Shown piece after piece: positions 14,578 to 31,054 of a DNA stretch of 32,236 bases. The stretch is from the IMG/VR virus record IMGVR_UViG_3300048587_000119, positions 1-32,236 of that record. One strand, written 5' to 3'. The notes under the pieces were generated by a model. That model made no database searches. It was not told the DNA's origin and was given only the letters and a program-made list of their open reading frames with translations. A program made the translations under genes and the position numbers. Positions within the stretch are counted from its first letter, which is position 1. Each line of letters starts with the position of its first letter. The DNA is from a virus.

Positions 14578-14973
14578 TTATACAACAGGTGGCTTAACAT
14601 TCTCAAGCTTCCGGCTGCCTTTCATATCATTGCAGTACTTACACGCCGGCTGGAGATTATCTAGCGCAAATCGCTTACTAGAGTCGTGAGAACGTGGAAT
14701 AACGTGGTCTAGTGTAAGATGCTCCAAGTCTAGTCTAATAGGACACCAGTCGTGAATACGCAGGTAACAGAGCCAGTATTTACCGTCTACTGGCGCTGGG
14801 TTCTTTCTAATCCAAGTGGCACGCGTAACAAACCACTGCCGAGTTTGCTTTCCAACTCTATTTATTGGAGTGCGTTTGAGTGCTTTCTTGGGGTTTGTAA
14901 AACATTGATAAGGGAAGTGTCCCATCTGTTTGCAGTGCTTGCATGGCTTCTTTGGAAATCTATCTAATGACAC
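14578..14973 (-). CDS. HNH endonuclease with N-terminal CCHC zinc knuckle
   Basis: A 131-residue protein from the GTG at 14973, chosen because GAGGAG lies 7 bases upstream; longer starts would run through the promoter and into the divergent gene. Residues C11-x2-C14-x4-H19-x4-C24 form a CCHC knuckle, a nucleic-acid-binding element seldom seen on phage HNH proteins. A basic linker follows, then the nuclease: C69 and C77, D89-H90-Val-Ile-Pro-Arg, N106, and C111-x2-C114-Asn. It is the only minus-strand gene between 1 and 28558 and lies between the lysis operon and an unrelated plus-strand operon, an arrangement typical of free-standing homing nucleases. Confidence 0.85.
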   Translation of the reverse strand: MSLDRFPKKPCKHCKQMGHFPYQCFTNPKKALKRTPINRVGKQTRQWFVTRATWIRKNPAPVDGKYWLCYLRIHDWCPIRLDLEHLTLDHVIPRSHDSSKRFALDNLQPACKYCNDMKGSRKLENVKPPVV

Positions 14974-14998
14974 TCGCTTGCTCCTCTTTAATAAATTA

Positions 14999-15007
14999 AG
15001 TATAACA
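14999..15007 (-). promoter_or_regulatory. Extended -10 promoter for the minus-strand HNH gene
   Basis: Read on the minus strand this is TGTTATACT, followed by a short leader with GAGGAG. The same element drives the glycosyltransferase operon at 31081-31089. It is back to back with the plus-strand promoter at 15020-15028. Confidence 0.65.
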
Positions 15008-15019
15008 ATACTTTTTTTA

Positions 15020-15028
15020 TGATAATAT
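15020..15028 (+). promoter_or_regulatory. Extended -10 promoter for the gene at 15035
   Basis: TGATAATAT lies six bases before ATG 15035, so the message should be leaderless. No Shine-Dalgarno sequence is possible in this gap. Confidence 0.6.
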
Positions 15029-15034
15029 TTGATT

Positions 15035-15286
15035 ATGGATGTGCAACGCATAGAAGGCATAAAATATGACCTCGACAAATTACAAGATCAAGAAATAGTC
15101 AACATACGTGGACACTTACTAGAAACCCACGCACGCGTTACCGGTGAGATTGCATTACTAGAGTTTAAGTTATTTCAAAGAACCCAGCACCCACTACCAC
15201 TTGAAGATGATCTAAATGGATACGGAGAAATTGCAGACCCAGAAACGTGGCAACACTACATTGATGCTGTAAAGGATAAAGACTAG
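15035..15286 (+). CDS. Small helical protein of unknown function
   Basis: An 83-residue protein. Its first fifty residues look like two antiparallel helices (Ile-Lys-Tyr-Asp-Leu-Asp-Lys-Leu, then Arg-Gly-His-Leu-Leu-Glu-Thr-His-Ala-Arg-Val-Thr-Gly-Glu-Ile), and the C-terminal part has Pro-Glu-Thr-Trp-Gln-His-Tyr. I do not recognise it. ATG 15035 was chosen over an upstream TTG at 15029 because the -10 element ends at 15028. The next gene starts with GTG directly after its stop, so the two form one transcription unit. Confidence 0.65.
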   Translation: MDVQRIEGIKYDLDKLQDQEIVNIRGHLLETHARVTGEIALLEFKLFQRTQHPLPLEDDLNGYGEIADPETWQHYIDAVKDKD

Positions 15287-15667
15287 GTGGCTGAGCGCCT
15301 CCACGACCACCACATATTACATTATCGCCGACCCCACGAATCCCACGAAGATACCAAGTGGATTAGGAGGAGAGGTGGCTTAATAGTCGGCATGCTAATA
15401 GATGTCCATGATGATCTGCACAAAAACACACCCGGCGTTCCGGTAATAGATATATACATGGCACGCCGGGTTAAAAGCATTATGATCAGGGAAGGTATAC
15501 CAAACGACCCATTCGCAGCAATAGACAACTACTGCTATGCAATAGAGCAAGCCAGCCTATCTCCTAAAACCTACGAATTAGAGAGAACTGTTGGCGAGAT
15601 GGCTATAGAAGCTGTCCGGCTACAAATACCGTATATCAAAGAAGGGTCTATGTATGCAGGAGTTTAG
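15287..15667 (+). CDS. Unknown protein with His-rich N-terminus
   Basis: A 126-residue protein starting with GTG immediately after the previous stop. The N-terminus is rich in His and Arg (His-Asp-His-His-Ile-Leu-His-Tyr-Arg-Arg, then His-Asp-Asp-Leu-His-Lys-Asn), which could bind a metal; the rest is helical. The His clusters recall HNH-like or nuclease-type metal sites, but no full motif can be completed, so no enzymatic function is assigned. It overlaps the next gene by 14 bases. This three-gene set (15035-16040) may act in regulation or DNA metabolism before the ParB/methyltransferase genes. Confidence 0.65.
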   Translation: MAERLHDHHILHYRRPHESHEDTKWIRRRGGLIVGMLIDVHDDLHKNTPGVPVIDIYMARRVKSIMIREGIPNDPFAAIDNYCYAIEQASLSPKTYELERTVGEMAIEAVRLQIPYIKEGSMYAGV

Positions 15668-16040
15668 CGAGTTTAATGTGCGAGTAAATACAGAAGAGCT
15701 GGGTTCAATGGTGCTTAGATGCACGCCGGACAACTCGGTCCTATACCTGCACCATCCTGATAGAAACGAACACTATGATCATATTTTTAGAAGATTAGCA
15801 GAGGATGAAACTCCTGAACCACTAAGAGGCACGCATAGTAATCTCGGTGGCTTTATCTGGCGCGAGGTACTAGGGCATGATGAGTTTGAGAATATCGCCA
15901 CTCTAGTAAGTAATAGTTGCAACTTTCCAGTAATATACAAGCCTGAACCAGACCCAGCCGATGCCCAGCAATACGAAGAGTTTGCTATGAAACAAATGCA
16001 CCGAGAGCTAGAGGACATTGACCCGGAGGACTTTCAATAG
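15654..16040 (+). CDS. Acidic protein of unknown function
   Basis: A 128-residue protein, acidic especially in the last thirty residues. A His-rich segment (Leu-His-His-Pro-Asp-Arg-Asn-Glu-His-Tyr-Asp-His) is near residues 33-44, and the middle has Gly-Gly-Phe-Ile-Trp-Arg-Glu-Val. No family is recognised. It overlaps the previous gene by 14 bases and ends 75 bases before the ParB-like gene, which has its own promoter. Confidence 0.62.
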   Translation: MQEFSEFNVRVNTEELGSMVLRCTPDNSVLYLHHPDRNEHYDHIFRRLAEDETPEPLRGTHSNLGGFIWREVLGHDEFENIATLVSNSCNFPVIYKPEPDPADAQQYEEFAMKQMHRELEDIDPEDFQ

Positions 16041-16115: not shown

Positions 16116-16604
16116 ATGGCAAACCCAAAATCAGAAGTAGAAGTAAAAACCTACGTTGAAAAGATAGACAAGCTTATTGCTAACGACTCAAATCCAAGAA
16201 AGATTAGTCGAAAAGCTTATGAATCACTAAAGAAATCACTCAGGGACTTTCCTGAGATGAAACAACTGCGCGAAATAGTAGTTGATGAAAACCTGACCAT
16301 TCTAGGTGGACATCAGCGTATTTACGCACTCAAAGAACTCGGTTATTCAGACGTTACCATTAAGCAAGTAACTGGCTTAACAGATAAGCAAAAGCGCGAG
16401 TTCATTATTAAAGACAACACTGCATCTGGTGAGTGGGATACGGATGTAATTGCAAACCTATGGGATATTGAAGAACTAGAGAATTGGGGAGTGCCTAGCT
16501 TTAACTTCGGAGACATCGGAGACGAGCCAAACGACCCTGCTGCAAAAGACAGCCAAAACAAAACACACACCTGTCCCGGCTGTGGTCTTGAGTTCGAGGA
16601 TTAA
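16116..16604 (+). CDS. ParB/Srx-like nuclease-domain protein
   Basis: A 162-residue protein. Residues 10-100 have the ParB N-terminal fold pattern: Lys-Ile-Asp-Lys-Leu-Ile-Ala-Asn then Asn-Pro-Arg-Lys, the strand Glu-Ile-Val-Val-Asp, and the key box Gly-Gly-His-Gln-Arg at 64-68, which binds nucleotide in ParB-like proteins. The C-terminus ends with a zinc-ribbon-like Cys-Pro-Gly-Cys-Gly (153-157). Phages and mobile elements often place such a domain before a DNA methyltransferase, fused or adjacent, as here. No DNA-binding HTH of true partition ParB is present, so a partition role is unlikely; a role in directing or regulating DNA methylation is more plausible. Confidence 0.82.
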   Translation: MANPKSEVEVKTYVEKIDKLIANDSNPRKISRKAYESLKKSLRDFPEMKQLREIVVDENLTILGGHQRIYALKELGYSDVTIKQVTGLTDKQKREFIIKDNTASGEWDTDVIANLWDIEELENWGVPSFNFGDIGDEPNDPAAKDSQNKTHTCPGCGLEFED

Positions 16605-16622: not shown

Positions 16623-17318
16623 ATGGCGAGGCATTATGGCATCCCCTATATGGGAAGCAAACAAAAACTAGTTGATAAAATAATACCTTTTATTCTAAAC
16701 AGGCATCCTGATACAACCGACTTTTACGATCTATTCGGTGGAGGTGCTAGCGTATCTCTATATCTAGCCCTGAAACAACCAAAGCTAAAAGTTCACTACA
16801 ACGAGCTTAGTCAAGCCATAAGTAATCTAGTGGTCCACTTAAAAGAAGGTGGCGACATACCATTTGACTTTATTACCCGACCAGAGTTTGAGCGCCAATA
16901 CAAAGGTGACGACTGGCACGCCGGCATGCTACAAACCTGCTGGACATTTGGAAATAATCAAAAAGGCTATTTATACGGTCTTGATATACAGGACTTTAAG
17001 GAGGAATTATCAAAACTAGTAACGACTGGTGAGGCAGATATAAACTACCTCGAAACATTTACAAACGACTTTGTACTAAAAGAATATGGCAAGCAGGTCA
17101 GCACACGCATATTTCTCAACGCAGAACGCTACAAGACCCCATACCAGCGCCGGATTGTACTTTCTCGACAAATACCCTATATCGGCGCATTACAGCACCT
17201 AGCGAGGCTTGAGAGGCTTGTGCAGATAAAAAACATGCCCGGAATAAGCACGCTAGACGTTATGGTCGGCAAAAGCTACTCTGAAGTTCCTATACCAGAG
17301 AGAGAGAGAGAGCAATAG
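16623..17318 (+). CDS. D12-class adenine DNA methyltransferase, N-terminal part (frame broken)
   Basis: These 231 residues hold the N-terminal two thirds of a Dam-like N6-adenine methyltransferase. Motif X is Ile-Pro-Tyr-Met-Gly-Ser-Lys-Gln-Lys-Leu (7-16) and motif I is Asp-Leu-Phe-Gly-Gly-Gly-Ala-Ser (37-44) for S-adenosylmethionine. The DNA-recognition region follows. The frame runs into an (AG)8 repeat (17297-17312) and stops at TAG 17316-17318, just before the catalytic DPPY motif, which continues in another frame at 17318-17557. With one AG fewer (or two more) a single 310-residue (or 312-residue) enzyme results. In this assembled form the protein lacks its catalytic motif. No restriction enzyme is nearby; as an orphan methylase it may protect phage DNA or affect gene control. 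Confidence 0.8.
   Translation: MARHYGIPYMGSKQKLVDKIIPFILNRHPDTTDFYDLFGGGASVSLYLALKQPKLKVHYNELSQAISNLVVHLKEGGDIPFDFITRPEFERQYKGDDWHAGMLQTCWTFGNNQKGYLYGLDIQDFKEELSKLVTTGEADINYLETFTNDFVLKEYGKQVSTRIFLNAERYKTPYQRRIVLSRQIPYIGALQHLARLERLVQIKNMPGISTLDVMVGKSYSEVPIPEREREQ
17297..17312 (+). repeat. (AG)8 dinucleotide repeat at methyltransferase frame break
   Basis: Eight AG units lie exactly where the methyltransferase reading frame changes. Such tracts lengthen or shorten in 2-base steps by slippage. 7 or 10 units would restore the frame; 8 or 9 would not. It is the longest dinucleotide tract I noticed in the window. Confidence 0.9.
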
Positions 17319-17557
17319 TGTATTGCGACCCACCATACGAAAACACAGCCGAGTATAGAGAAGGTGGCTTTGATCATAAGGCTTTTTATGATTGGGTTAT
17401 GGCACAACCTCATCCGGTATACATTAGCAGCTATAAAGTCAGCGACCCTAGACTTAAGCTAGTTAAAGCAATCAATACTAGAAGCTTACTTGCAGCAGCA
17501 TATACCGACAAGGCAAGCTATAACTACGAGAACCTCTACTGGAATGGCGTGGAGTAA
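17318..17557 (+). CDS. D12-class adenine DNA methyltransferase, catalytic C-terminal part
   Basis: The 79-residue frame begins with Tyr-Cys-Asp-Pro-Pro-Tyr-Glu-Asn-Thr, the catalytic motif IV of adenine methyltransferases, then Glu-Gly-Gly-Phe-Asp-His and Phe-Tyr-Asp-Trp-Val, normal D12 sequence. Read upstream in the same frame the sequence gives Ala-Ile-Val before Tyr-Cys-Asp-Pro-Pro, the expected beta strand, so the frame naturally crosses the AG repeat. The GTG at 17318 overlaps the stop of the N-terminal part (TAGTG), so restart by a terminating ribosome could make this piece separately. A split enzyme joined from two peptides, phase variation and an assembly error are the three possible readings. 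Confidence 0.8.
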   Translation: MYCDPPYENTAEYREGGFDHKAFYDWVMAQPHPVYISSYKVSDPRLKLVKAINTRSLLAAAYTDKASYNYENLYWNGVE

Positions 17558-17563
17558 TAACCC

Positions 17564-18277
17564 ATGTCCGAGAACACAAAGCTCCAAGATAAGTTCTTAA
17601 TAACTACAGCCTATCAGGAACGAGTACAAAAGTTATTCAAAAAGCCACAAAAAGGCAAAGACAAAGCTGTTCTTGACCGGCTACACGATGAGTGGTTTTT
17701 TAATCTGCCTCCCGGCTACTTTAAGAAACTAACGGAAGAGTGGAACGAGCGCAACCTACGAATAAAGATTAAGCCACAAAAGAACTATGATGAATGGCTA
17801 AACTACTTTAAAACCCTGCCACCAACGTCTATCAAGATGCTCGCAGCCACAGGGCAGGACTTCCTACCCACAGAAGCATACGCAGCACTTAGTCGTTGGC
17901 ACGATATTATTGGCAACCCACATCGAATAGACAAAATACATCAATCCGGGCTTACAAGTCCAAAAGCAAACAAGGACAGTAAGACAATAGCCCAGCTCGC
18001 GCTCGCTAATGACCGTCTGGGCGTTCTAAAAGCCACACGCGATAAAATAGCCGAGAAACTAGACAAAGGCGCTGGTAGCCGAGATACAGCCCTTTTAACG
18101 CGTGAAATGACTGAGATTATGACACAAATTGCAGACTACGAAAAAAGACTCGGTCCTAAAAAAACAACCGAGCTTGGCAGGCTACTGGATGAAGTGCCAA
18201 ATAAAAAGCGCACCAGAAGCAAAGGCGCTCGCAACACTAGCTTTAAATCAAGAGTAACTATAGAGGATGTAAACTAA
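17564..18277 (+). CDS. Terminase small subunit (actinophage-type)
   Basis: A 237-residue protein coupled to the large terminase gene by a TAATG overlap. The C-terminal half has the pattern of actinophage small terminases: a long helix (Leu-Lys-Ala-Thr-Arg-Asp-Lys-Ile-Ala-Glu-Lys-Leu), Ser-Arg-Asp-Thr-Ala-Leu-Leu-Thr-Arg-Glu-Met, a second helix, then Leu-Leu-Asp-Glu-Val and a basic Ser/Arg-rich tail. The N-terminal 125 residues, rich in Lys, Trp and Tyr, are probably the DNA-recognition part, though I cannot name its fold. The subunit recognises the packaging start site on phage DNA and passes it to TerL. Confidence 0.72.
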   Translation: MSENTKLQDKFLITTAYQERVQKLFKKPQKGKDKAVLDRLHDEWFFNLPPGYFKKLTEEWNERNLRIKIKPQKNYDEWLNYFKTLPPTSIKMLAATGQDFLPTEAYAALSRWHDIIGNPHRIDKIHQSGLTSPKANKDSKTIAQLALANDRLGVLKATRDKIAEKLDKGAGSRDTALLTREMTEIMTQIADYEKRLGPKKTTELGRLLDEVPNKKRTRSKGARNTSFKSRVTIEDVN

Positions 18278-19743
18278 TGCCCAAGCTATACGGAAACCCC
18301 AAGCCACGCCTTGACTACTACAAAAACGGAGATATATGGCTAGCAGACAAAACTATCCGGCTACTAGAGCATTACGGTATAAAGCTACTCGACTGGCAAA
18401 AAGCTATTTTATACAGGTGGATGGCTGTTGAAGAAGATGAATTCGGAGAGTGGAAGTGGGTCAATACCGACTGTGGCTTACTAGTGCCAAGACAGAACGG
18501 TAAATCTGAACTTATGATCGCCAGAATAGTCGGAGGCATGATATTTCTCGGCGAGGCACTCATCTACACAGCCCACAGCGATAATACCGTTGCTGAAATA
18601 AAACGCAGGGTCTTGCGCTTCTTCTACGATGCAGAGGAGGAGATACGCGACATGCTAACAGAGGAGTTCGACAAAGAACCAAAAAGCCTCGACTACATTG
18701 AGCTTAGAAACCGAGCAAGATGTGTGTTCAGAACCAGAACACGCACAAACGGACTGGGTAGCACTAACGATGTTCTACTATTAGACGAAGATCAGGAAGA
18801 GACCGATGCCCAGCAGGAAGCATTACTTCCTACCATCTCTGCCGGTAAGAACCACAACCACCAAACTATAAGAGCCGGTACTCCACCAAGTGGTGGAGGC
18901 AAAGGTACAGTCTTTATGCGAATGCGCCAAGCAGTCATTAAACGAAAAGCGCCGGATGTCTGTTGGCAGGAGTGGTCAGTCGAAACAATAACCGACCCCA
19001 GCGATGAGGAGGCTTGGTATAAAGCTAATCCTAGTCTTGGTTATTTCCTAATGCGCTCTGCAGTAAAATCGGAATCCCAGAAGATGGCAATAGACAGCTT
19101 TAACAAGATGCGTCTTGGCTGGGTAGCCGGCGTGGAAAGCATGCGAGCTATTACTGACGAACAATGGTCGCCTCTTGCAGTAAAAGCAGTGCCTTTGCCA
19201 GATAACGCCAACATAGTCTATGCAGTTAAGTTCGCGCCAGACGGTAGCTCCGTATCGCTAGCTGTGGGAGTAGTTATGCCAGATACTAGAACACACGTTG
19301 AATTAGTAGAGCGCAAGCCTATGAGTGCCGGCACAGGCTGGCTCGCAGACTGGATACTAGCTCGCTGGCGTAAACCCAACAAGATCATAATTGATGGCGC
19401 AGCAGGCACGCAGTTATTAGTAGAGGAGCTTATACGTTCCAACCAGAAGCTTAAAAAGAAGATACTTACTCCAAACGTTAGAGAAGCCGGTGCAGCATAC
19501 GCAGACTTCTATACTGGCATCGAGCATCAAACACTCACTCACTTCGACCAGCCGGCTCTAAACGTATCAATACGAACAGTAAAAAAGCGAAGCATTGGCA
19601 AAGATGGGATGTTTGGTTATTCCAGCATGAACCCAGACATACAAAGCGATCCAACTGAAGCAGTAGCATTCGCGTTTTATGGCGCACGCCGGTTCAAAAA
19701 GGACAAAACCACCAGTGGTAGCAGTCAATCTGTTATGGTATAG
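18277..19743 (+). CDS. terL: Terminase large subunit
   Basis: A 488-residue DNA-packaging motor. The ATPase half has a Walker A variant Val-Pro-Arg-Gln-Asn-Gly-Lys-Ser (70-77), Walker B Val-Leu-Leu-Leu-Asp-Glu (166-171) and Gly-Thr-Pro-Pro-Ser (201-205) as a likely motif III. The nuclease half has Asp322 in Phe-Ala-Pro-Asp-Gly, Asp373 in Ile-Ile-Ile-Asp-Gly and an acidic residue near Asp458 as candidate metal ligands. It belongs to the HK97/actinophage group by the Pro-Arg-Gln-Asn-Gly-Lys sequence. The terminase pair normally stands next to the portal; here it is about 14 kb away, downstream of the lysis genes. Confidence 0.92.
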   Translation: MPKLYGNPKPRLDYYKNGDIWLADKTIRLLEHYGIKLLDWQKAILYRWMAVEEDEFGEWKWVNTDCGLLVPRQNGKSELMIARIVGGMIFLGEALIYTAHSDNTVAEIKRRVLRFFYDAEEEIRDMLTEEFDKEPKSLDYIELRNRARCVFRTRTRTNGLGSTNDVLLLDEDQEETDAQQEALLPTISAGKNHNHQTIRAGTPPSGGGKGTVFMRMRQAVIKRKAPDVCWQEWSVETITDPSDEEAWYKANPSLGYFLMRSAVKSESQKMAIDSFNKMRLGWVAGVESMRAITDEQWSPLAVKAVPLPDNANIVYAVKFAPDGSSVSLAVGVVMPDTRTHVELVERKPMSAGTGWLADWILARWRKPNKIIIDGAAGTQLLVEELIRSNQKLKKKILTPNVREAGAAYADFYTGIEHQTLTHFDQPALNVSIRTVKKRSIGKDGMFGYSSMNPDIQSDPTEAVAFAFYGARRFKKDKTTSGSSQSVMV

Positions 19744-28558: not shown

Positions 28559-29206
28559 TTAAATATTGATAACTTGCTTATTCCAAGTAACAAGACTGTC
28601 TGCTAGCCTATGAGCAACTCTAGCTCCCGGCGCTTTGCCATGATCCAATAAACTGTCTAGCTCGTCATTATGGTCCACTAAAGATGGCATAGTGTAGTAA
28701 ATAGGCAGACGATTACGTTGGTAGAATATACCAATACGAGTGTCATACGGTTCATCTCTATCATCTACAAACTCAAGCATTGGTTTTATATGGCTGGAAG
28801 GTATAACAATACCAACTCCCCACATAAGCAACCAGAACTGTAACCAACTATCATCATTAACCTTGTCTACTGCTAATTGTACTCGTTTACCAAGTGGGCG
28901 CGCTCTGCCGGTATAAAGCGACACTAAAGACTTACTTGGCACGCTTTCCAGCGCTCCCAGCAGGTTTTCAAAGAAAAAAGGGCATAATATAGCATCGTCT
29001 TGAATTACAACGTGCCAGTCGCCTCTATTCACGCCGGCAAGTAATGCCCGTTTGCCATTATCCCACTCTTCTTGGTGCGAACCGGCATCAACGCCATCAT
29101 AAGAAATGCTTACATCCATAAATGAATACTTTTTTAGTTCAGTTGCTAGCGCCTCTGCTTGGTCCTTGCGCTTTGGATGAGCCATTACTGCAACGGTAAT
29201 ATTCAT
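28559..29206 (-). CDS. Glycosyltransferase-like protein (GT-A type)
   Basis: A 215-residue protein, last gene of the minus-strand operon. It starts with the strand Ile-Thr-Val-Ala-Val-Met-Ala-His-Pro, and Trp-His-Val-Val-Ile-Gln-Asp70-Asp71-Ala gives the acidic pair that binds metal and nucleotide sugar in GT-A enzymes. Later Trp-Gly-Val-Gly-Ile-Val-Ile-Pro and Tyr-Asp-Thr-Arg-Ile-Gly fit the acceptor side. Size is normal for compact phage glycosyltransferases. Its stop codon touches the stop of the large fibre with no gap. It most likely transfers a sugar to virion proteins or a host glycan. Confidence 0.75.
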   Translation of the reverse strand: MNITVAVMAHPKRKDQAEALATELKKYSFMDVSISYDGVDAGSHQEEWDNGKRALLAGVNRGDWHVVIQDDAILCPFFFENLLGALESVPSKSLVSLYTGRARPLGKRVQLAVDKVNDDSWLQFWLLMWGVGIVIPSSHIKPMLEFVDDRDEPYDTRIGIFYQRNRLPIYYTMPSLVDHNDELDSLLDHGKAPGARVAHRLADSLVTWNKQVINI

Positions 29207-29207
29207 G

Positions 29208-29747
29208 CTACTGCCCTGCAGGGATAATACAAGTCATGCTGTCAGCGACATCTGCGTCACGCCGGTAATGCTTTATCTTGAGCTTTGACTTTTTTAGATA
29301 ATCAATAGTTGTAAGCTTAGAGTCGACATAAGAGGGCATAAGTGAAGTGTGCAAATCCTCTAAAACGTAAAAACCACCTTTGTTTAATTGCTTATAGTAG
29401 AGATGCTCAAAAGAAGCTTGTTGGTCGGCTGTTTTATGGCTTCCATCATCAATAATAATGTCGAAATTACCAAGTTTCTTTAATGCTGCAGTATCAGTAG
29501 CGTCTAATTGCAATACTTTTACTCCCGGAATCTGAACATGCGACTTATCGAATATGTCGACTCCGACAATTTCAGCATTAGGGTAATACTCTGCCCACAT
29601 TGCCAAACTAGCACCATCCATTACACCTATCTCTAATAATCTACCTTTGAATGATCGCTTTGGCAGGTTCTTTTCATAAAAGTCGCAGTATTTATGAAAG
29701 AAAGCTTTGTCTGTGTTGTGTTTTATACCTAGTTCTTGCAGTTTCAT
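29208..29747 (-). CDS. SAM-dependent O-methyltransferase (TylF/MycE-like class I)
   Basis: A 179-residue class I methyltransferase: motif I Leu-Glu-Ile-Gly-Val-Met-Asp-Gly-Ala-Ser (38-47), Val-Gly-Val-Asp (61-64) to bind the ribose, Ile-Ile-Ile-Asp-Asp-Gly-Ser-His (97-104) and Tyr-Val-Leu-Glu-Asp-Leu-His-Thr-Ser (127-135). The Asp-Asp-Gly-Ser-His and Glu-Asp-Leu-His signatures match sugar O-methyltransferases of the macrocin/mycinamicin type, where these acidic residues hold a metal. Located between two glycosyltransferase genes, it probably methylates the sugar they attach. The start has GGAGG upstream and overlaps the previous gene (ATGA). Confidence 0.85.
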   Translation of the reverse strand: MKLQELGIKHNTDKAFFHKYCDFYEKNLPKRSFKGRLLEIGVMDGASLAMWAEYYPNAEIVGVDIFDKSHVQIPGVKVLQLDATDTAALKKLGNFDIIIDDGSHKTADQQASFEHLYYKQLNKGGFYVLEDLHTSLMPSYVDSKLTTIDYLKKSKLKIKHYRRDADVADSMTCIIPAGQ

Positions 29748-31054
29748 CTAACGTTCCTCCTCAACCATCTTTGGTAATCAGGATGGTCGGCAAATTTCTC
29801 TTTGCCATATTTTTTATTGAATATATATATATTACCCCACTTCATGTCTAATTGATCACGCGCCGGCATAGCACTTACGGTACTAGAGGGCTTATGTTCT
29901 ACTATGGCATCAAGCACTATCATTGGAAGCACGCCTTTGTCTTTTACTTGCTCTATAACAACATCATCACTGCACCAGAAGCTTACATCTTCGTCAAACC
30001 TACCTATGTCCTCCCAGAGCTTGCGCTTAATCATAAAGCACCAACCAGAGAAGTGTCTGCCACACTCATCTCCCAGCTCGTTCTTTATAAAGCCCTTCTG
30101 ACGTAAATCATTAGGCTCGTGTGGGCTTACAACATCGTTACCTGCAGCAATAAGGTTATGTAGCCATCCGTCTTTGAACACTAAGTCGTTATTGGCGATC
30201 ATAATCCATTCGGCAGAGCCTAGCGCAGCAGCAGTATTAGCGAAGCCATTATAGTTAAACTTACCCGGCTTGTGTATGGTGGTCGCGTTCTTGTACTTAT
30301 AGTCGCCACCATTCTCTACTACAATAATATTTATAGGCAGTCCGTTGGTAGTATAGAAGCATGTATTGACTGCCTCTTGGGTCATAGTAACCGTTCTAGA
30401 GTCAGTTGCTTTGGAGAGTATAACCACATCAACAACCGGCTTCTGTCTGCGTGGCTCGGTTCGGTTATACTTCCAAGCCTGTGTCTCCGTAGTCTCTGCG
30501 TTGTAATCGTAATAGTATAGGACTTTCTTTATATCATGCTCGGTCTTTAGATGAGGCAGTAGAACTTTACCGTAGCCGGCATCCTCTCCATATAGTATGT
30601 TCGGAAAGCTAGACTTCAAAGACACCTCGCGCTTTATACAACAGATATGGTTCGGAATACGGTGGTAACTAGAAGGTAGATTATAGTCACGCTTAACATC
30701 CTTTGAGTAGTAACATATCTTAGCCACCTCTCCGTTAAGGCTTACCTCTGCTTGAAACACTATGCTGTCTGCATCAGTAGCAGTAGCATCGAGCAACTCT
30801 TTTATATAGTCGTCAGAAATACGATCATCATCGTCAACGAACGCAATATATTTACCTTGAGCCAGCTCAACCATCTTGTTGCGCTTATGTCCTAGCATCA
30901 TCTTCTTGTTGTCTGTAAGTACTATGATCTCAACGCGCTCCTGCTCTTCAGGTGTTAGTGCCTCCAGCTGAGTAAATAATTGTTTCTCTATTTGTAATAA
31001 AAAGTTGTCATAACGAGTGTTAACACTGCATATAAGTATAGATAAATCAATCAT
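29744..31054 (-). CDS. Two-domain glycosyltransferase (tandem GT-A)
   Basis: A 436-residue protein, first gene of the minus-strand operon. Domain 1 (about 1-200) is GT2-like: Leu-Ser-Ile-Leu-Ile-Cys-Ser, Lys-Arg-Asn-Lys, Phe-Val-Asp-Asp-Asp-Asp (72-77) and Gly-Glu-Asp (156-158). Domain 2 (about 206-436) repeats the fold: Val-Asp-Val-Val-Ile-Leu-Ser, Ile-Ile-Val-Val-Glu-Asn-Gly, Ile-Ala-Asn-Asn-Asp (286-290), Ser-Gly-Trp-Cys-Phe-Met-Ile-Lys and Cys-Ser-Asp-Asp (361-364). Two active sites in one chain could add two sugars in turn. Followed by the methyltransferase with an ATGA overlap. GGAGC precedes the start. Targets could be the adjacent fibres. Confidence 0.85.
   Translation of the reverse strand: MIDLSILICSVNTRYDNFLLQIEKQLFTQLEALTPEEQERVEIIVLTDNKKMMLGHKRNKMVELAQGKYIAFVDDDDRISDDYIKELLDATATDADSIVFQAEVSLNGEVAKICYYSKDVKRDYNLPSSYHRIPNHICCIKREVSLKSSFPNILYGEDAGYGKVLLPHLKTEHDIKKVLYYYDYNAETTETQAWKYNRTEPRRQKPVVDVVILSKATDSRTVTMTQEAVNTCFYTTNGLPINIIVVENGGDYKYKNATTIHKPGKFNYNGFANTAAALGSAEWIMIANNDLVFKDGWLHNLIAAGNDVVSPHEPNDLRQKGFIKNELGDECGRHFSGWCFMIKRKLWEDIGRFDEDVSFWCSDDVVIEQVKDKGVLPMIVLDAIVEHKPSSTVSAMPARDQLDMKWGNIYIFNKKYGKEKFADHPDYQRWLRRNVR

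Follow-up and report, generated by a model that had tools for sequence, protein, structure and literature searches.

The phage record examined here raises the question of why the gene for a DNA adenine methyltransferase should be interrupted exactly at a simple repeat, and whether the interruption represents a decayed gene, an artefact, an enzyme made in two pieces or a genetic switch caught in one of its states. The record, IMGVR_UViG_3300048587_000119 of IMG/VR (32,236 nt, analysed whole and called the window below), encodes phage head, portal, tail, lysis and terminase genes, and at 16623-17557 it carries a D12 adenine methyltransferase gene that is divided between two reading frames, the break falling exactly at an (AG)8 tract (17297-17312). 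The first frame, ORF A (16623-17318, plus strand), comprises the N-terminal 231 codons with the SAM-binding FGGG motif and the target-recognition region, and ends ...SYSEVPIPEREREQ at a TAG (17316-17318) directly past the tract. The second, ORF B (17318-17557, plus strand), is joined to ORF A by a net -1/+2 shift, has a possible GTG start and reads RERERAIVYCDPPYENTAEY..., its 79 codons up to the stop at 17555-17557 including the catalytic DPPY (17327-17338) and the rest of the catalytic domain; the DPPY frame contains ...AIVYCDPPYENTAEY... and extends to 17557.

Both pieces were recognized as parts of one enzyme class. PF02086 (D12) in Pfam matches the N-terminal piece at 9-57 (E=1.6e-5, above the gathering score), which covers the D12 domain with its FGGG motif, and PHROG 56 (DNA methyltransferase) matches ORF A (E=3.5e-14) as well as ORF B (E=2.9e-10). 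DPPY (motif IV) is encoded but out of frame with the N part in this assembly, whereas the two are on the same polypeptide in all intact close relatives, and because DPPY lies in another frame we file the window gene as a frame-broken D12 member. By frame arithmetic, seven AG units would give one protein of 310 residues, in agreement with the 308-310 aa of the intact relatives. Coordinates, frames and domain matches thus agree with the initial annotation, which had described a D12/Dam-like methyltransferase split exactly at the repeat and had stated that seven or ten units, and not eight, restore the frame.

The methyltransferase gene lies between a ParB-like gene directly upstream (16116-16604; PHROG 498, E=5e-26; PHROG 620, E=2e-24) and the genes for the terminase small subunit (17564-18277; PHROG 1459, E=1e-8) and large subunit (18277-19743; PHROG 9, E=3e-48), all on the plus strand. 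ParB-like genes are frequent partners of phage methylases. Protein-level scans of IMG/VR identified seven close relatives (L002 to L007 and L012, with L005 and L006 encoding an identical protein), which are 63-74% identical to the window methylase over the N half and 77-85% over the C part. The gene order ParB-like gene, methylase, small terminase, large terminase is common to the window and these relatives; the ParB-like gene is kept in all of them, and the large terminase is intact and 77-86% identical. No relatives were found in bacterial genomes by protein-level search, nor in plasmids. Upstream, about 1 kb with small ORFs (14967-16040) separates a conserved minus-strand ORF (14578-15078) from the ParB-like gene, and fewer than 100 bases occupy this place in L007 and L012.

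In all seven close relatives the methylase is a single ORF of 308-310 codons without any repeat. Five residues lie between VxI and (I/V)(I/V)YCDPPY in these proteins, compared with six (PERERA) in a seven-unit version of the window gene. Since none of the seven carries the repeat, the tract was gained in the lineage of the window. The initial annotation had named eight units in all relatives, together with conserved split proteins, as the finding that would speak against switching; what the relatives display is a tract-free gene and an unsplit protein. Among more distant D12 methylases (L016-L027), in-frame amino-acid repeats of the LQQLEY type occur ahead of the DPPY strand, near the position of the AG tract in the window.

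An AlphaFold2 model of the intact homologue L003 (mean pLDDT 87.7) placed the tract in structural context. In this model a strand (229-233) leads into DPPY (234-237), and residues 225-229, those replaced by the tract, precede or begin this strand, so that the tract would encode the loop just ahead of it (the pre-DPPY loop). The top matches in a fold search with the model included T4 Dam, E. coli Dam and DpnM, with modest TM-scores (0.35-0.5), and the predicted fold is Dam-like.

These comparisons bear on whether the two frames could form a working enzyme as they stand, with translation stopping at the TAG and restarting at the overlapping GTG (TAGTG), or with a +2 hop inside the repeat. The overlap is indeed present, such a hop would preserve AG pairing, and the C half is conserved. 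All close relatives nevertheless make single proteins, so that the split form is not conserved, a restart would fall inside the strand leading to DPPY, the ribosome site is weak and AG-rich, and no classical slippery heptamer occurs. We therefore regard a two-piece enzyme as the least probable of the explanations considered, and a very unlikely one. Readthrough or recoding of the TAG was rejected, because the conserved frame differs from the frame beyond this codon.

An assembly or sequencing error, in which the true genome would have seven units and a whole gene, is also improbable, if marginally less so. The window is known from a single metagenomic record, and short repeats are known sites of indel errors in some sequencing chemistries. 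Against such an error, the 16 bp of the tract are far below read length, and the genes neighbouring the methylase align to those of the relatives without any other frame break. Moreover, even with seven true units the tract itself would persist, and it is absent from the relatives.

To judge decay, unique changes in the window gene were counted at columns invariant in six other sequences. For the C half the count was 0 of 50 and for the N half 3 of 99, compared with 0-4 and 1-9, respectively, in the same count for intact relatives. Nonsynonymous divergence of the window gene is similar to that among the intact relatives, with synonymous sites near saturation. Because both halves evolve like an intact gene, with no extra wear at invariant columns in either, old decay is unlikely and was rejected; judged by these substitutions, the methylase is under constraint, either still or until very recently. 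A recent break would equally account for this lack of wear, and recent one-way loss, in which an AG slip killed an unneeded gene and the tract is a mere low-complexity stretch of Glu-Arg codons whose reversion is not selected, is the main rival to switching, since one OFF sequence cannot tell the two apart. Such a loss is in turn more probable than an assembly error or a two-piece enzyme.

The (AG)8 tract is the sole dinucleotide run of at least seven units in the window, and under a first-order Markov model runs of at least eight units of any dinucleotide are expected about 1e-4 times per 32 kb, which makes a 16-bp pure run improbable by chance and counts against loss at a merely low-complexity stretch. 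It is pure, lies inside an ORF, has a unit that is not a multiple of three, sets by its length the frame of a gene that is otherwise intact, with both halves conserved, and exceeds the cut-off of at least six units applied to dinucleotide tracts of phase-variable genes (PMC6321876). The authors of PhasomeIt state that their cut-offs take in tracts with mutability below 1e-5 (PMC6321876); eight AG units may thus slip too rarely, which is a point against switching. The same six-unit cut-off is reached elsewhere in the window by an (AT)6 tract (29821-29832), which lies in frame near the 3' end of a minus-strand glycosyltransferase gene (29744-31054); about 0.02 runs of this kind are expected by chance per window. 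This gene belongs to a group of glycosyltransferase genes at 28559-31054, and its product is 56% identical to Gordonia phage proteins although the G+C content of the phage is only 44%. The Gordonia-like glycosyltransferase may point to a host that is an actinobacterium or is associated with actinobacteria.

We searched IMG/VR and 85,000 genomes for the same design, defined as at least six AG units no more than 30 bases away from a DPPY codon string. Only two records were found in IMG/VR, both phage ParB-methylases. In L029 an (AG)7 tract is in frame within an intact gene of 533 residues (...LLTPERERAVIDLVFTDPPY), whereas in L028 an (AG)8 tract is followed by a broken frame (...LLNAEREREP, then a stop). 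Across their N parts the two share 57% identity at the protein level and 66% at the DNA level, and since the tract has been kept at this DNA identity it has outlived much divergence. L094-L097 share 86% identity with L029 in the ParB N part, but in them a separate C5-type methylase gene takes the place of the DPPY domain, an instance of module exchange.

In the 85,000 genomes, the pattern matched six loci (L030-L035), all of them tract-bearing methylases of mycoplasmas with 8-15 units before DPPY. The related Type III Mod M.MmyCI of Mycoplasma mycoides was OFF with 12 units and ON with 10 units by activity (PMC3498834). Like the window gene, M.MmyCI and the mycoplasma Mod genes have an AG tract in the coding region just before DPPY whose unit number sets the frame, and their OFF forms also end right after the tract. 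M.MmyCI differs from the window gene in belonging to a cellular Type III restriction-modification system, in its methylase class and in adjoining a res gene, whereas the D12 enzyme of the window is a phage methylase that stands alone, flanked by a ParB-like gene on one side and the terminase on the other.

A version of the DPPY pattern with G8 or longer matched at least 120 stretches in IMG/VR, of which 80 loci were kept (L108-L187). Most of the matches listed are phage methylases with a G8-G14 tract in the same pre-DPPY loop. Among those with callable genes, after removal of duplicates, 40 are in frame and 27 are broken at the tract (about 40%), whereas an independent set of tract-free phage methylases, collected by protein similarity, contains 61 genes in frame and none broken there; the difference (Fisher p=1.1e-9) is a rough guide only, the sets having been collected differently and the G-tract set mixing families. 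One pair captures a single step: L108, with G10, is in frame and L133, with G9, is broken, and across 1,409 bp, where they share 92.6% identity, their sole indel is one G in the tract. In their family, 74 genes have a longest pre-DPPY G run of 2-4 and six genes one of 10, with none between, which indicates that the tracts are discrete gains and not the tail of G-rich codons. The methylase of L173 was not found in E. coli genomes.

Like the window gene, these ParB-methylases (L028/L029 and L108/L133) lie beside the terminase in phage contigs and carry a slippery tract in the pre-DPPY loop, and among them the two frame states occur; L028, L029 and L133 adjoin terminase genes as the window methylase does. 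They differ in that their methylase domain is PF01555 (N6_N4_Mtase) fused to ParB_N and not D12, and many such enzymes have G tracts and not AG tracts. A further phage D12 enzyme, encoded by L142, has a G8 tract ahead of DPPY and thus shares the class and tract position of the window gene, but its tract is mononucleotide and in frame and it is not a close relative. Other orphan phage methylases also have the D12 domain, namely T4 Dam and those of Podophage Lau218 and the lactococcal 936-group phages, the enzymes of Lau218 and the 936 group being 27-35% identical to the window protein; we know of no slippery tract or split in any of them.

Two further sets of split genes were considered and set aside. 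In the S. pyogenes prophages Javan447, Javan476 and Javan492, the two annotated CDS of the methylase meet well downstream of the pre-DPPY loop, and in Staphylococcus phage S-CoN_Ph26 many frame breaks occur along the gene, which looks like sequencing error.

Taken as a whole, the window gene is probably a phase-variable phage methylase sampled in its OFF state. The number of AG units in the pre-DPPY loop would set the frame of this D12 (Dam-like) adenine methyltransferase, with slipped-strand mispairing at replication adding or removing units. With four, seven or ten units the frame would be uninterrupted and the enzyme expected to be produced (ON); with eight, translation would stop right past the tract, ahead of the catalytic motif (OFF). 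A burst or a lineage would then contain a mix of genomes with and without the methyl mark, and mixed methylation could be of use where hosts vary in restriction or in methyl-dependent defence. From the comparisons above we infer that switching at this locus would be reversible; this supposes that the tract slips often enough and reverts, that the ON protein methylates DNA, and that the phage benefits.

Recent one-way loss appears considerably less likely, although it is favoured by the absence of the tract from close relatives and by OFF being the single known state at this locus. Besides the improbability of the run, it is opposed by the position of the tract, which occupies exactly the loop that harbours slippery tracts in other phage methylases and in mycoplasma Mod genes, and by the lack of any break there in the 61 tract-free phage methylases of the comparison set. 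The tract is a recent feature of one lineage and could be a one-off. A difference in tract length was seen in one phage methylase pair, L108 and L133; the IMG/VR viral contigs searched contained no second copy of the window locus and no other tract length for it. The phase-variable reading of the initial annotation thus stands as the best one and is supported by the wider survey, with the reservation that it rests on one sequence at the locus with no length variant found and tract-free close relatives.

Repeat-switched methylases are well known in bacteria, where phase-variable methylases act as regulators and defences. We found no report of a repeat-switched phage-encoded methylase in the open-access literature searched, which is weak evidence of novelty. 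The earlier opinion that such switches are rare in phages seems doubtful, tract-bearing phage methylases in both frame states being common in IMG/VR, many of them in unrelated phages. A wider proposition, for and against which the balance seems to us about even, is that phages commonly carry hypermutable ON/OFF methylases, that AG or G tracts arose repeatedly before DPPY in D12 and ParB-N6/N4 enzymes beside the terminase, and that the genomes packaged by a phage population are in part methylated and in part not, so hedging its bets between restriction and defences that sense methylation, the window being an AG-type case caught OFF. This general pattern, more than the window gene alone, carries most of the interest. 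If true, it would offer a testable reason for the broken or split annotation of many phage methylases, and a simple count of reads across existing viromes would serve as the test. The methylation state of a phage stock would then change without any difference in host, and phage anti-restriction would be a random, heritable strategy of the population.
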